DNA of 34,614 bases from Candidatus Sumerlaeota bacterium (GTDB lineage Bacteria > Sumerlaeota > Sumerlaeia > JAFGJS01), in NCBI GenBank assembly GCA_016928995.1, contig JAFGJS010000087.1, forward strand, positions 1-34,614. The letters are read 5' to 3'. Shown here one piece after another: positions 15,358-20,485 of this stretch. Numbering within the stretch: position 1 is the stretch's first letter; the number at the start of each line of letters is the position of its first letter. A program made the translations under genes and the position numbers. Below the pieces are notes generated by a model, which was given only the letters and a program-made list of their open reading frames with translations, was not told where the DNA came from and searched no databases.

Positions 15358-16134
15358 GTGTCCGATGTGATTCAACCGGAGGTGAAACCGGAAAAAGGCA
15401 TGCGCGCGGAGCTCATGGTGACGTGTCTGGCCGACGCCTTCTATCCGGCCGTGGGGCTTGCGGCGGCGGAATGCCTCGAGCGCGTGGGGCTTAAGGTGCA
15501 TTTCGACGAACGGCAGACCTGTTGCGGCCAGCCGGCCTTCAACAGCGGCGACCGGGCGGCAGCGCGCAAAGTCGCGCGGCACACCATCGAAGTCTTCCGT
15601 CACGCCGAACTGGTCGTCATCCCCAGCGGCTCCTGCGCCTCGATGGTGCGCTGGGGCTATCCGCAGCTTTTTCGCGGCGAGCGCGACGAGGCGGACGCCA
15701 TCGCGCTGGCCAAGCGCACCTTCGAACTCTCCGAACTGCTCTGCCTGATGAGCGATAACCAGTGGGAAGGCCGCTACGCCAGGCGGATCACGTTCCATCG
15801 CTCCTGCCACATGCGCGAACTTTCCCCTGGCGCGCGGCCCGAAGACTTGCTGCGCTGTCTGGACGGGATCGAGATGCTCGATTTCGACACGCCCGAGCAA
15901 TGCTGCGGCTTCGGCGGCACATTCGCCGTCGCGTTCCCCTGGACCAGCAAGACCATGGGCACGAAAAAGCTGGATGCGCTGCTCAAGCCCGAACCGGAAG
16001 AAATCATCTCCAGCGACATGGGCTGTCTGATGCACCTCGGCGGCATGCAGAAGAAATTGCTCAGCGAAGGCAAACTGAAAAAAGAAATCCCCATGAAGCA
16101 TTTTGCGCAAGTGCTCAATGAGGCTGGATCATGA
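15358..16134 (+). CDS. lutA: LutA-type lactate-oxidation (Fe-S)-binding protein
   Basis: A 258-residue cytoplasmic protein with two CCG (cysteine-rich) domains: CCGQPAFNSGD...IPSGSC in the first half, and CHMREL...CCGFGGTFAV...SSDMGCLMHLGG in the second. This is the LutA/YkgE family, which with LutB and LutC oxidises L-lactate to pyruvate. GTG at 15358 is the start, with a GGAGA seven to eight bases upstream. lutB and lutC are not adjacent as usual but begin 2.3 kb downstream, behind a transposase/REP/nuclease insertion. Length and motifs are intact. Confidence 0.92.
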   Translation: MSDVIQPEVKPEKGMRAELMVTCLADAFYPAVGLAAAECLERVGLKVHFDERQTCCGQPAFNSGDRAAARKVARHTIEVFRHAELVVIPSGSCASMVRWGYPQLFRGERDEADAIALAKRTFELSELLCLMSDNQWEGRYARRITFHRSCHMRELSPGARPEDLLRCLDGIEMLDFDTPEQCCGFGGTFAVAFPWTSKTMGTKKLDALLKPEPEEIISSDMGCLMHLGGMQKKLLSEGKLKKEIPMKHFAQVLNEAGS

Positions 16135-16141
16135 CAGAACC

Positions 16142-16170
16142 TTGGAGTGCGCAGGCCATGCCTGCGCCTT
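16142..16170 (+). repeat. REP-like hairpin, unit 1
   Basis: This 29-base element eight bases after lutA contains a perfect 8-bp stem (GCGCAGGC 16149-16156, GCCTGCGC 16160-16167) with the triloop CAT. It is flanked by TTGGAGT on the left and CTT on the right. An identical copy in the same orientation lies at 16912-16940, so the two copies bracket the RAYT transposase gene. It could also terminate or stabilise lutA mRNA. Confidence 0.85.
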
Positions 16171-16199
16171 CGAATTGAAATGCAATTGATCATACGACA

Positions 16200-16790
16200 A
16201 TGAGCAAGAAAATGCCAAACCAGCATTCCGATTTCCAGAATTCCTTAAACAATACGCAATCCCGGCGCTGGCATCATCGTCCTGCCCATGTGTTCGAGCC
16301 GAACATGGCCTATATCGTGACGGCGGGCACATTGAACAAGGAGCATTTTTTTCGAGGAGATGAAAGGCTCGAACTGCTGCAAACCACAATTTTTGAAGTT
16401 CTGGAAGCATATGAATGGCAACTTCAGGCTTGGGCGGTGTTCTCCAATCACTATCATTTCATCGCCCTTTCACCGGCAATTCCAAATACACTGCGGTCCA
16501 TGATTGGACGATTGCACTCACAGACCGCTCGTGTGATCAACCAACTGGATGGCGCTCCAGGACGGCGTGTCTGGTTTCAGTATTATGATACGTGCTTAAC
16601 CTATGAGAATAGTTATTATGTACGGCTCAACTATGTGCATAATAATCCGGTTAAGCATGGAATTGTGGGCAATGCGGAGTTATATCTTTGGTGCAGCGCG
16701 GCATGGTTTCGTCAAAACACCGAGCAAGGCTATTACAACAAAGTCGGCTCGTTTCGTTGCGATCATCTTAACATCGCGGATGACTATTGA
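16200..16790 (+). CDS. REP-associated tyrosine transposase (RAYT, IS200/IS605-like Y1 HUH)
   Basis: A 196-residue Y1 transposase-type protein. The HUH metal-binding motif is seen as NHYHFI (residues about 88-93). The catalytic Tyr region is SYYVRLNYVHNNPVKHGIVG (about 137-156), the hallmark of the RAYT/Y1_Tnp family. These single-domain nucleases nick single-stranded DNA at REP hairpins and are usually domesticated genes flanked by REPs rather than mobile ISs. Here 29-base REP copies lie 30 bases before and 122 bases after the gene, and more REPs follow. The gene is intact. It has no clear ribosome binding site; ATG 16200 or 16212 could start it. It interrupts the lut cluster. Confidence 0.92.
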   Translation: MSKKMPNQHSDFQNSLNNTQSRRWHHRPAHVFEPNMAYIVTAGTLNKEHFFRGDERLELLQTTIFEVLEAYEWQLQAWAVFSNHYHFIALSPAIPNTLRSMIGRLHSQTARVINQLDGAPGRRVWFQYYDTCLTYENSYYVRLNYVHNNPVKHGIVGNAELYLWCSAAWFRQNTEQGYYNKVGSFRCDHLNIADDY

Positions 16791-16800
16791 CTTGTCTGCG

Positions 16801-16891
16801 ACAAAGGCTGAAGCATGGCTTCAGCGCATGTTGTGAATAGTGGCGGAATCCGGCATGGCAAAGGCGGCGGCATGGCCGCCGCACTCCAAGG
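16801..16891 (+). repeat. 91-bp duplicated block with two REP-like hairpins, copy A
   Basis: This block holds a perfect 8-bp stem GCTGAAGC/ATG/GCTTCAGC (16807-16825) and a second perfect 8-bp stem GCGGCGGC/ATG/GCCGCCGC (16864-16882). They are separated by about 38 bases that include a decayed CCGGCATGGC. The second unit is the inverted orientation of the 16142 unit, with paired stem substitutions. The whole 91 bases recur at 17059-17149 with four differences by my alignment. Confidence 0.85.
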
Positions 16892-16911
16892 ACGTTGTGC
16901 GGCCAGCACTT

Positions 16912-16940
16912 TTGGAGTGCGCAGGCCATGCCTGCGCCTT
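16912..16940 (+). repeat. REP-like hairpin, exact second copy of unit 1
   Basis: Identical over 29 bases to 16142-16170 and in the same orientation, 770 bases downstream, so the RAYT gene lies between direct REP copies. The stem is GCGCAGGC/CAT/GCCTGCGC. Confidence 0.88.
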
Positions 16941-16965
16941 AAGAACAACGCGAATTTTAAGTCAA

Positions 16966-16980
16966 GGCGGCCATGCCGCC
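16966..16980 (+). repeat. Short REP-like hairpin, unit with 6-bp stem
   Basis: A perfect 6-bp stem GGCGGC (16966-16971) and GCCGCC (16975-16980) with the same CAT triloop as the other units, preceded by AA and followed by a degraded CTGGAG flank. It is a partial member of the same family. Confidence 0.7.
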
Positions 16981-17058
16981 CCCTGGAGTTTCTTCGGTTG
17001 AATTGCGAGTCTGGACGCGTTAATTTATGTGCGACGAAAATATAAGTGAGAATTCAAT

Positions 17059-17149
17059 ACAAAGGCTGAAGCATGGCTTCAGCGCATGTTGTGAATCGTA
17101 GCGGAATCCGGCATGGCGAAGGCGACGGCATGGCCGCCGCACTCCAAGG
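17059..17149 (+). repeat. 91-bp duplicated block with two REP-like hairpins, copy B
   Basis: Second copy of the 16801-16891 block. The first hairpin (GCTGAAGC/ATG/GCTTCAGC, 17065-17083) is unchanged. The second (17122-17140) has one A in place of G in the left arm, which breaks one base pair. It ends 32 bases before the nuclease-like gene start and may lie in its leader. Confidence 0.85.
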
Positions 17150-17181
17150 CGGGCGTAGCACATCATCAAAGGAGACAAAGG

Positions 17182-18339
17182 ATGAATAAACTGATCCAAA
17201 CTATCGGGATGATCCGGCAAAAACTTCCTTCGCTACGTCGTCATGCATTGAAGGAAACCCCGACTCGAACGATTGTTATCGATCCTTTGCTCGATGCGCT
17301 CGGTTGGGATGTGCGCGATCCTGACGAGGTGCAATTGGAGTGCCCGACAGTGGACGGCAAATTTGTGGACTATGCGCTCAAACTCAATCGGAAACCAGTA
17401 TTGTTGGTCGAAGCGAAAGCGATTGATGATCCGCTGGATGATGTGAAGGCGATTACGCAGATCGTGGGTTATGCCGCCAACGCAGGCATTGTCTGGTGTA
17501 TTCTCACCAATGGCATCAAATGGCGTGTCTATCGTAGTGTGGAGAAATGCCCTGCACCGGATAAGTTGATGTATGAAGTCAGCCTCGATCTTGACGAGTC
17601 GGAAGGCATGACTATTGAGCAAATTGCACAACAGCTCTGGCGTCTTTCACGCGAAGAAACGGCCAAGGGAACGCTGGATGCTTTGGGAGAACAGACCTTC
17701 ACGGACGGCAAGGTTCGCAAAGCATTACATGCTCTAATGAATGATCCACCTCGGCCATTGCTCAATCTTGTCCGTGCAAATATCGGGGATAACGATCTAG
17801 CCCCGCAACGCATCAAACAAAGCCTGATCCGTATAGCCGCAGAATCGGATCAATCTATAGTATCCATTGGCAGTACGGAATCCAAGCGCTCAAAATACTC
17901 TAGGACAGAACAAGCCTACAGATCGCATAGAGCTAAAAAAGCTTGGAAAACACGCTCTGCTCCAGATTATGAAGATCAATGTAATGAATCATATCATATT
18001 TCTGGCAAGTCTCAAGAAACACTTGATCTATATCGGGGAGCAGAACGCTTTTGTTATAGTATGACTTCAGAGAAAATTGATAAAAGGTATCGTAAAAACT
18101 ACATTGGATATTTTTTAGGCGAGAGAAAATGTTTCTGCAGAATCGTACTGCTTTCTAATCGAATAATTCTTAGGCTCCGTTTAAAGTACACCGAAATAAG
18201 CAATCCGCCAGTTTTTGCAAGAGACACAAAAGGATTGCTGCATCACAGTCCGCTTGATTTCGAGTTGACGATCAGCAATCGCATAGAGTTAGAACAAAGC
18301 AAAGATTTAATACGGCAGTCATTTGACGCCGTATCTTAA
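17182..18339 (+). CDS. Lone PD-(D/E)xK nuclease-like protein (HsdR N-terminal type) with DUF5655-like C-terminus
   Basis: A 385-residue protein of unproven function. The first 170 residues match the N-terminal domain of type I restriction subunits and related nucleases: PTRTIVIDPLLDALGWDV, then Asp63 in GKFVDYAL, and Glu77-x-Lys79 in LLVEAKA, giving the D-(13)-ExK active-site pattern. A QIVGYAANAG helix follows. A hydrophilic, low-complexity linker covers about 225-285. The C-terminal 110 residues (YRKNYIGYFLG...DFELTISNRIELEQSKDLIRQSF) resemble DUF5655 as I remember it. No helicase motor, HsdM or HsdS is nearby. Start ATG 17182 has a strong AAAGGAG seven bases upstream. G+C falls sharply along the gene: 58% in a 60-base sample at 17281, 35% at 17941. 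A solitary defence nuclease or selfish-element passenger are both possible. Confidence 0.72.
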   Translation: MNKLIQTIGMIRQKLPSLRRHALKETPTRTIVIDPLLDALGWDVRDPDEVQLECPTVDGKFVDYALKLNRKPVLLVEAKAIDDPLDDVKAITQIVGYAANAGIVWCILTNGIKWRVYRSVEKCPAPDKLMYEVSLDLDESEGMTIEQIAQQLWRLSREETAKGTLDALGEQTFTDGKVRKALHALMNDPPRPLLNLVRANIGDNDLAPQRIKQSLIRIAAESDQSIVSIGSTESKRSKYSRTEQAYRSHRAKKAWKTRSAPDYEDQCNESYHISGKSQETLDLYRGAERFCYSMTSEKIDKRYRKNYIGYFLGERKCFCRIVLLSNRIILRLRLKYTEISNPPVFARDTKGLLHHSPLDFELTISNRIELEQSKDLIRQSFDAVS

Positions 18340-18349
18340 AAAATCGGTT

Positions 18350-18384
18350 ATCTAGCATCGAGTATCCAGCATCCAGCATCGGAT
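18350..18384 (+). repeat. Five imperfect 7-bp tandem repeats before lutB
   Basis: Units ATCTAGC, ATCGAGT, ATCCAGC, ATCCAGC and ATCGGAT run head to tail between the nuclease-like gene and lutB, ending 26 bases before the lutB ATG. They may lie in the lutB leader. No known regulatory motif is recognised. Confidence 0.6.
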
Positions 18385-18410
18385 GCGATCAACACACAAG
18401 GCAACAAATC

Positions 18411-19805
18411 ATGTCCTACATTGAAATGGAAAAAGAAGCGCAGGGGCAGACTGCGGAGTCATTGGCGGCGGTGCGGGATGCTTCGGAGAAAAAGGTGATC
18501 TCCCGCCGGAACGCCTTTGGCGCGAAAGTCAAGGATCTGGACGGGCTGCGTCAACTGGCCGCGCGGATTAAGCAGCATACGCTGGACAACCTGCCGCATT
18601 ACCTGGAGCAGGCGGAGAAACGCCTCACGGCCAACGGGATCCAGGTGCATTGGGCCGCCGACGCCGACGAGGCGCGCCGCATCTTCAAGAAGCTCTGCGA
18701 CAGGGTCGGACCGGGATTGATCGCCAAGTCCAAGTCGATGGTGACTGAAGAGATTCACCTCAACGATTTTCTTGAGCAGCACGGCTACCAGCCCGTCGAG
18801 ACCGATCTCGGCGAGTTTGTCGTGCAGATCGCGCACGACCGCCCGAGCCATATCGTCACGCCGATCATCCACATCAACGGCCGGCAGGTGGCGAAGTTGT
18901 TCGAGAAGGAAGGCCTCGGCAAATACACCGAGGATCCCGAGGAACTGACCATGCAGGCGCGCGCGCATCTGCGCGAGATTTATCGTAAATCGAGCATCGG
19001 CGTGACCGGCGGCAACTTCGTCTGCTGTGAAACCGGCCGCATCGTGACCTGCACTAACGAAGGCAACCTGCGTATGAGCGCGCAGGGAGCGAAAATCCAG
19101 GTTTCGATCACTGGCATCGAGAAGGTCGTGCCGCGCGAGGCGGACATGGCCGTGCTGTTGAACCTGCTGGCGCGTTCGTCCACCGGCCAGGACCTGACGG
19201 TGTATACGCAGTGGGTCAGCGGTCCGCGACAAGAGGGCGAGATCGACGGTCCGGAAGAAGTGCACCTGATTTTCATCGACAACGGCCGCACGAACCTGCT
19301 GGGCGGCAAGTACCACGAGATGCTGCGCTGCATCCGCTGCGGGGCGTGCATGAATGTCTGCCCGGTGTATCGCGCGCAATCGGGCCACAGTTACGAAAGC
19401 GTATATCCCGGACCGATGGGCGCGGTGATCTCTCCGCTGCTGGGCGGCGAGGAGTCGCTCAAGACCTACGCGCAATTACCGAAAGCCTCCTCGCTGTGCG
19501 CAGCGTGTGAAGAGGTTTGTCCGGTCGCCATCCCCATTCCGAAACTGCTGCTCTCCCTGCGTGACGAATTGCACGGCAAGGCTCCGGCGCTAGGCGGGCT
19601 GCCGTCCTTTGCGCCCTGGGCCATGCTGGCGTCGAGTCCGTTGATGTGGAAGACGGCGTTGAAGGCCGGGGGGATCACTGGTTGGGGACCGGCGAAGCTC
19701 GCCGCGTACCGGGTTTTCGGCAATTGGCTCAGCAGCCGCGAACTGCCGGAATGGCCGCGTGAATCATTCCGCGCGGCATGGAAGAAACGGAAAGGGAACT
19801 CATAA
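18411..19805 (+). CDS. lutB: LutB-type lactate-oxidation iron-sulfur protein
   Basis: A 464-residue cytoplasmic iron-sulfur protein. The N-terminal LUD-type domain (about 65-300) includes SKSMVTEEIHLNDFLE and GVTGGNFVCCETGRI. A ferredoxin-like region follows with two Cys clusters, CIRCGACMNVCPVY and CAACEEVCPVAIPIP, each suited to a 4Fe-4S cluster. It acts with LutA and LutC to oxidise L-lactate. An AAGG lies about 14 bases upstream of the ATG. The stop shares one base with the lutC start (TAATG), so lutB and lutC are translationally linked, while lutA is separated by the REP/transposase insert. Confidence 0.94.
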   Translation: MSYIEMEKEAQGQTAESLAAVRDASEKKVISRRNAFGAKVKDLDGLRQLAARIKQHTLDNLPHYLEQAEKRLTANGIQVHWAADADEARRIFKKLCDRVGPGLIAKSKSMVTEEIHLNDFLEQHGYQPVETDLGEFVVQIAHDRPSHIVTPIIHINGRQVAKLFEKEGLGKYTEDPEELTMQARAHLREIYRKSSIGVTGGNFVCCETGRIVTCTNEGNLRMSAQGAKIQVSITGIEKVVPREADMAVLLNLLARSSTGQDLTVYTQWVSGPRQEGEIDGPEEVHLIFIDNGRTNLLGGKYHEMLRCIRCGACMNVCPVYRAQSGHSYESVYPGPMGAVISPLLGGEESLKTYAQLPKASSLCAACEEVCPVAIPIPKLLLSLRDELHGKAPALGGLPSFAPWAMLASSPLMWKTALKAGGITGWGPAKLAAYRVFGNWLSSRELPEWPRESFRAAWKKRKGNS

Positions 19806-20485
19806 TGACCGATCATCGCGCAGTGATTTTCGACCGCATTCAACAGGCGTTGGACCGGGGACGCCGGGATGGTTACGTGCCTACGAGCAGTGAAGCGGCG
19901 CCGCAGCCGCCTGATTTGCCGGAAGGATCGATCCGGCAATTTGCGTCGAGTGATTCCGGCGCGACCTACGCGCGTTTCGTCGAACGCATCAAAGGTTTGG
20001 GCGACACGATTGTGCGCGTGGCGAACATGAACGCCGCGAAACATTGGCTGCTTGACTCGGTGCGGCAGCGCGGCTTTGCCAGCGGCGTGGCGGACCGCGA
20101 TGCGGCGAAGGCGCTGGGGATTGATTTTTCAGGGGATAGCGCGCCAAAACTGCATCCGCCGATGGATAAGGACGCGATGTTCGCCGTGGATTTCGGCGTG
20201 ACGCTGGCCGATTTCGGCATCGCCGAGACGGGATCGCTGGCCATTTTCGGCGGCGCGGGGCGTTCGAGGCTCTCCAGCCTGGTTCCGCCGGTGCATTATT
20301 GTGTCTTGCGTTTGGAGGACTTATTGCCTGATGTCTGGGATGCGGTTCATTTACAGGCAGAACGCGCAAAGCCGGGGCTGCTGGTCTGGATCAGCGGCAG
20401 CAGCCGCACCGCCGACATCGATGGCATCATGATTCATGGCGCTCACGGCCCCAAGGAACTGTTTGTTATTGTCGTGGATGAATAG
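19805..20485 (+). CDS. lutC: LutC-type lactate utilisation protein (LUD domain)
   Basis: A 226-residue protein made of a single LUD domain. The diagnostic segment VTLADFGIAETGSLAIFGGAGRSRLSSLVPPVHYCVLRLEDLLPD is at about residues 130-175, and the C-terminal ISGSSRTADIDGIMIHGAHGPKEL ends the domain. LutC is the third component of the L-lactate oxidation complex. I chose ATG 19805, one base overlapping the lutB stop, over an upstream start inside lutB, because GGAAAGGGAA precedes it at good spacing. Confidence 0.93.
   Translation: MTDHRAVIFDRIQQALDRGRRDGYVPTSSEAAPQPPDLPEGSIRQFASSDSGATYARFVERIKGLGDTIVRVANMNAAKHWLLDSVRQRGFASGVADRDAAKALGIDFSGDSAPKLHPPMDKDAMFAVDFGVTLADFGIAETGSLAIFGGAGRSRLSSLVPPVHYCVLRLEDLLPDVWDAVHLQAERAKPGLLVWISGSSRTADIDGIMIHGAHGPKELFVIVVDE

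Follow-up and report, generated by a model that had tools for sequence, protein, structure and literature searches.

A putative REPtron with GGA[G/C]T-headed hairpins in a Sumerlaeota genome and a MITE-like element around most of its repeats

A single-copy gene for a REP-associated tyrosine transposase (RAYT) in a Sumerlaeota (BRC1) genome, together with the hairpins around it, is best read as a REPtron, with a probability of roughly 0.8: the hairpins would be cognate REPs recognized by head, foot and cap, and many of their dimers would be passengers of a MITE. The broader proposal is that GGA[G/C]T-headed REPs form a class served by a RAYT clade that is widespread, seems to be undescribed and uses a head-foot-cap code, and that their dimers are also cargo of a DDE-type MITE, one repeat population being served by two unrelated transposition systems; this is more tentative and falls a little short of even odds. 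New are the head sequence, the cap rule and the packaging of dimers in a MITE. The genome comprises 4.55 Mb in 161 contigs, and the window, i.e. the whole stretch of 34,614 nucleotides analyzed, belongs to contig C131.

The RAYT gene and its hairpins

A lutA-like gene (15358-16134) precedes the RAYT gene and six hairpins, and a lutB-like gene (18411-19805) lies beyond them. The features of the window are as follows.

16142-16170, + strand: REP type A, upstream of the RAYT gene; head TTGGAGT, stem GCGCAGGC/GCCTGCGC, loop CAT, tail CTT
16200-16790, + strand: RAYT, 196 amino acids, with NCBIfam, Pfam and PDB matches; HUH motif N83-H84-Y-H86, catalytic Y145, N149
16801-16891, no strand assigned: 91-bp direct duplication, first copy, containing hairpin C and REP B; 96% identity
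16807-16825, - strand: REP-like hairpin type C; stem GCTGAAGC/GCTTCAGC, loop CAT, tail CTT
16861-16889, - strand: REP type B, downstream of the RAYT gene; stem GCGGCGGC/GCCGCCGC, loop CAT
16912-16940, + strand: second copy of REP type A, 29 nucleotides identical to 16142-16170; hairpin 16919-16937
16966-16980, + strand: short remnant hairpin GGCGGC-CAT-GCCGCC, 6 bp, without the GGA head; inverted repeat pairs I5 and I6
17059-17149, no strand assigned: second copy of the 91-bp direct duplication, 96% identity
17065-17083, - strand: hairpin C again, within the second copy of the 91-bp duplication
17119-17147, - strand: second copy of REP B; stem GCGGCGGC/GCCGTCGC, loop CAT

A preliminary description of this DNA had placed a REP family beside a RAYT, and the gene product bears this out with 81.4 bits against NCBIfam NF047646 (REP_Tyr_transpos; cut-off 80) and 26.6 bits, above the cut-off, against Pfam Y1_Tnp. 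The sole PDB match is E. coli TnpAREP 4ER8 (E 0.003), to which the HUH, Y145 and N149 columns align; these columns are kept in the relatives. Membership in the RAYT/TnpAREP group is indicated by the Y1 family domain with HUH motif and catalytic tyrosine and by a single-copy gene with inverted REPs on either side, of a kind found repeatedly across the genome; a search at E<=1e-25 found one copy of this clade in the own genome. Eight more Y1_Tnp genes, of other clades, are present (L031-L038); in their immediate vicinity, no TTGGA[GC]T REP with a CAT loop was recorded. A weak match to the last 41 RAYT residues (37% identity) at C37:7193-7315 is possibly the remnant of a second copy. The lutABC-like lactate utilization genes (15358-20482) are split by the REPtron and an HSDR_N gene: the ORF at 17113-18339 contains a type I restriction HSDR_N domain, and since its ATG at 17113 lies inside the duplicated REP region, the true start is probably 17182.

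In the canonical REP, TTGGA[G/C]T and CTT enclose an 8-bp stem whose two arms are separated by CAT; CAT and ATG are one loop, read on opposite strands. The hairpin proper of REP A spans 16149-16167 and is canonical on the + strand (DNA fold -10.8 kcal/mol, z -3.5), that of REP B spans 16864-16882 and is canonical on the - strand (-12.0, z -4.0). A and B differ in mid-stem and stand inverted to each other, one on either side of the RAYT gene; A/B dimers occur elsewhere. The earlier reading of the third unit as the first one inverted was correct: the unit at 16864 is an inverted form of the unit at 16149 in which both arms are altered at stem positions 4 and 5. The perfect 8-bp stems that had been described around CAT or ATG are found in most units, but the second REP B (hairpin 17122-17140) has one G.T wobble on the canonical strand, corresponding to an A.C mismatch on the other, and folds more weakly (-8.5, z -2.3). 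Type C hairpins, of which the genome holds two copies only, carry CATGC in place of the GGAGT head, and REPs with GCTGAAGC and a GGAGT head were found in G007 and at L129. Because the second GCTGAAGC and second GCGGCGGC copies lie within one 91-bp direct duplication, they represent a single event.

Head sequence, guide-reading residues and known systems

Almost every copy has GGA[G/C]T as its head, as do the relatives, in place of the GT[A/G]G that stands 5' of the hairpin in GTAG-headed REPs. Surveyed REPs have a GTAG or GTGG head (PMC2817692, PMC3733652, PMC6006769), and the words GGAG and GGAC were not found in the open-licence REP texts searched for them. The GTAG-reading residues W94, Q95, E100, H101 and R104 of the E. 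coli enzyme align to W125, F126, D130, T131 and T134 of the window RAYT, and at least three of the five differ in kind. A switch in specificity is predicted from the new head and the altered guide-reading residues taken together. The motif set NHYH, WF and YVHNNP fits no subclass tabulated in PMC6006769; the clade is provisionally regarded as undescribed, as the literature search was confined to open-licence papers.

Like the Group 3 / subclass 2.5 REPtron of S. maltophilia (REP-Sm, PMC8266576), the system has a single-copy RAYT, an 8-bp perfect stem, a 3-nt loop (reported to be critical for REP-Sm), CT on the 3' side and inverted dimers. It differs from REP-Sm in its head, which is GGA[G/C] at one base from the stem instead of GTAG, and from the subclass in its protein motifs, since subclass 2.5 is defined by DH[LF]H, WQ, YI[VI]ANP and GTAG REPs, whereas the window RAYT has NHYH as its HUH motif, WF as its W motif, and YVHNNP. 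With the E. coli REPtron (group 2 / subclass 2.2, 4ER8) it shares a homologous Y1/HUH enzyme, BIME dimers and more than one REP type beside one gene (Y, Z1 and Z2 in E. coli); the E. coli REPs, however, are long, bulged and GTAG-headed, while the window stems are short and mostly perfect. Subclass 2.6 and class 3 TnpAY1 (PMC6006769) likewise have flanking repeats without GT[A/G]G, but their structures are weaker and atypical (class 3 foot CnGA), in contrast to the strong stems of the window, and class 3 has a Y motif other than YVHNNP.

Stem pairing, and a cap common to both hairpins of a RAYT

With one genome scanned per species, 274 relatives of the window RAYT were found. The best 80 of the 274 have 42-64% identity and come from records labelled Verrucomicrobia, Planctomycetota, Acidobacteria, Zixibacteria, Hydrogenedentes and others, metagenome-bin labels that may err. 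Hairpins of relatives were searched with the RAYT as anchor (<=500 bp) and the pattern TGGA[CG]TGC ... GC[CT]TT, pairing not being a criterion. The REP frame was found beside the related RAYT at 56 of 83 loci, in 181 places with 99 distinct sequences; related loci are not independent. Stem positions 3-7 were paired in 90.3% of cells of the 99 distinct sequences, compared with 60.4% when the 3' letters were shuffled (maximum 65.7% in 1000 shuffles). A pair counter applied to 33 distinct 28-mers with 8+3+8 hairpins of relatives gave 96.2% paired cells vs 78.3% shuffled, 45 doubly changed cells vs 11.1, and both-sided changes at six of the eight pairs; the covariation score was 0.501 vs 0.144 shuffled and <=0.16 in slid controls. 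Selection on the folded form across relatives is well supported by these sequence comparisons.

Two variants of the repeat were noted in this material. A G.A mismatch is kept at stem position 7 in 31 of the 99 distinct sequences, e.g. GCGGCGGC-TT-GACGCCGC; the RAYT loci of this subclass are among L126-L205 (e.g. L133, L163 and L200). Another genome (G025) contains >25 copies of GGAGTGCGCGCGGCTTGCCGCCGCCTT and near variants with the same head and tail and an imperfect stem, and no related RAYT was found in its assembly.

Further copies beyond the window, on which the preliminary description had made the case depend, were found: the genome holds about 85 in all, mostly as inverted dimers. A-like places number 47 and B-like places 39 (<=3 mismatches; reversed controls 0), with one place common to both lists. 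Matches to GCNNNNGCATGGCNNNNGC total 105 vs 5 in the reversed control, and the flank-only pattern GGASTGC-N15-GCCTT occurs 73 times vs 4. The repeats have the general character of RAYT-associated REPs, i.e. short, GC-rich, multicopy palindromes (20-50 nt) that frequently form inverted dimers (BIME/REPIN). Exactly one of three founder stems is present in 72 of the 85 copies read; seven copies have stem A' (GCGCAAGC/GCTTGCGC), which differs from A by a paired change. The remaining 13 copies contain 16 changed stem positions, eight wobble, eight broken and none compensatory. These private copies look like decaying founder stems, and as all 16 changes are one-sided, the local copies show no selection on pairing. 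Paired changes had been taken as a sign of selection on folding; this is upheld by the covariation across relatives but not within the own genome (0 of 16 private changes compensatory), and the conclusion drawn from the three local stems went too far. The refuting condition named in the preliminary description, unpaired changes as frequent as paired ones, speaks against selection on private copies when it is applied within this genome. The loop is constant within the own genome, as had been described, but varies in the family (CAT, CAC, CGT, TCT, TTT, TT, TC, AT and others).

REPs in both orientations are present at 41 loci, with identical hairpins at 9 and different hairpins at 32. Several stem types near one RAYT are therefore not unusual, contrary to the first impression, and in a published survey close to half of such genes are likewise reported with two or more REP subfamilies (PMC6006769). 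Partners of equal length were compared at 25 distinct two-stem loci, with partners shuffled between loci as control. Agreement at stem positions 6, 7 and 8 was 84, 88 and 84% (shuffled 54, 63 and 72%), and at positions 4 and 5 it was 40 and 20% (shuffled 52 and 30%). Stem 6-8 plus loop was identical between partners in 48% vs 7% shuffled, a value reached by 0 of 5000 shuffles; selecting two-stem loci forces differences somewhere, a bias that runs against this result. The two hairpins of one RAYT thus share the foot (GC) and the cap (stem 6-8 plus loop) and differ at stem 4-5, which explains the fixed loop with changing stems noticed at first reading. Mantel tests of RAYT distance against cap (r 0.17) and mid-stem (r 0.22) were both weak and do not discriminate.

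From these sequence patterns, the RAYT probably reads the head, the GC foot and the cap. The HUH/Y1 enzyme would bind the single-stranded hairpin through these three parts and would cut at CT 3' of the stem, a CT being present in the CTT tail. With recognition so confined, any pairing mid-stem would be accepted, and the two ends would be free to drift apart there, avoiding perfect pairing of the ends with each other. TnpAREP of S. maltophilia acts on an 8-bp perfect stem with a 3-nt loop, is loop-dependent and cuts at CT (PMC8266576); by analogy, the proposed head-foot-cap recognition agrees with its biochemistry, in which the loop is critical. The dozens of natural RAYT/hairpin pairs with shared foot and cap and free mid-stem make the recognition code directly testable. 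To our knowledge, the choice of REPs by a RAYT has been measured for few enzymes only.

Mid-stem differences may instead have been selected at the level of the dimer, since identical inverted REPs would fold into a long cruciform and would then be cut or deleted, with RAYT recognition irrelevant. Such an effect has been suggested for REP heterodimers (PMC3733652), and the partners do differ at stem 4-5 somewhat more than unrelated partners, a count that the selection of two-stem loci biases. The identical hairpins on both sides at 9 of 41 loci and the shared cap, which it leaves unexplained, make it an unlikely sole cause, although it is compatible with the REPtron reading.

The element enclosing most genomic REPs

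A 13-bp inverted end, CTGATGTTACGCA, starts about 24-25 nt before the REP head on both sides of dimers. This TIR (<=3 mismatches) was found within 40 nt upstream of 54 of the 85 REPs, against a background of 5 of 919 windows. No recognizable TIR encloses the other 31, which include all REPs of the window and one at the border of the sequence read. Exact TIRs number 31 in the own genome and 0 in the reversed control, with two single matches in 60 other genomes. Examples of TIR/TSD elements that enclose REP dimers are:

C121:6671-6826 (L059)
C141:22475-22631 (L065)
C22:21956-22113 (L018)

TIR pairs 100-320 bp apart number 39, and 16 of these have exact 7-8-bp A+T-rich target duplications (e.g. 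TTATTCA, TTACTAA and CTATTTAA), compared with a mean of 0.8 and a maximum of 5 with swapped flanks. Swapped flanks were used since a shifted-flank control is uninformative, the shifted matches containing the same duplication. Whole elements are up to 97% identical in unrelated flanks. With its 13-bp TIR, 7-8-bp target-site duplications, length of about 155 bp and no coding capacity, the element resembles bacterial MITEs. No TIR pair 0.7-3 kb apart that could mark an autonomous element was found (<=1 mismatch; 161-contig assembly), and in the window the best TIR match has 5-6 mismatches of 13, no better than chance. One imperfect candidate for an 'empty' TIR-TIR element (C129:29616) was not convincing.

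IS200/IS605 transposition leaves no larger target duplications (PMC2817692), and the duplications at CTGATGTTACGCA elements point to a DDE-type enzyme instead. Many REP copies have probably spread as cargo of this MITE rather than by the RAYT, the dimers multiplying as passengers of the CTGATGTTACGCA-ended element. As most genomic REPs lie in it, copy number in this genome is no evidence of RAYT activity, and where REP dimers sit inside target-duplicating elements, REP copy number need not measure such activity.

It could be argued further that the dimers are simply the inner part of the MITE, with unread hairpins, a bystander or relic RAYT, and stem variation that is founder variation. The TIRs, the target duplications, the near-identical elements in unrelated flanks and the uncompensated private mutations all fit this. 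It is nevertheless quite improbable: it does not account for the 31 REPs outside recognizable TIRs or for the cap shared within a REPtron, and the TIR is confined to the own genome, yet the REP frame adjoins orthologous RAYTs in many phyla. Least probable is a role of the hairpins in RNA, as terminators or mRNA stabilizers, and not as transposase substrates, for although they are apparently intergenic and fold strongly, and known REPs can act on mRNA, there is no Rfam match, the stem is followed by CTT and not by a run of U, and the conserved unpaired head and the inverted arrangement around RAYT genes fit a DNA enzyme.

Particular to this MITE are the REP dimer as cargo and the presence of unrelated hairpin dimers in other copies. 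A REP pair with another cap is enclosed in elements on C118 and C64. GACAGGAT dimers lie inside elements on C48 (L208), C62 (L209) and C110 (L210), a GTAGGGGCGATTG hairpin inside one on C135 (L212), and GCCGGC hairpins inside those on C156 (L214), C49 and C113.
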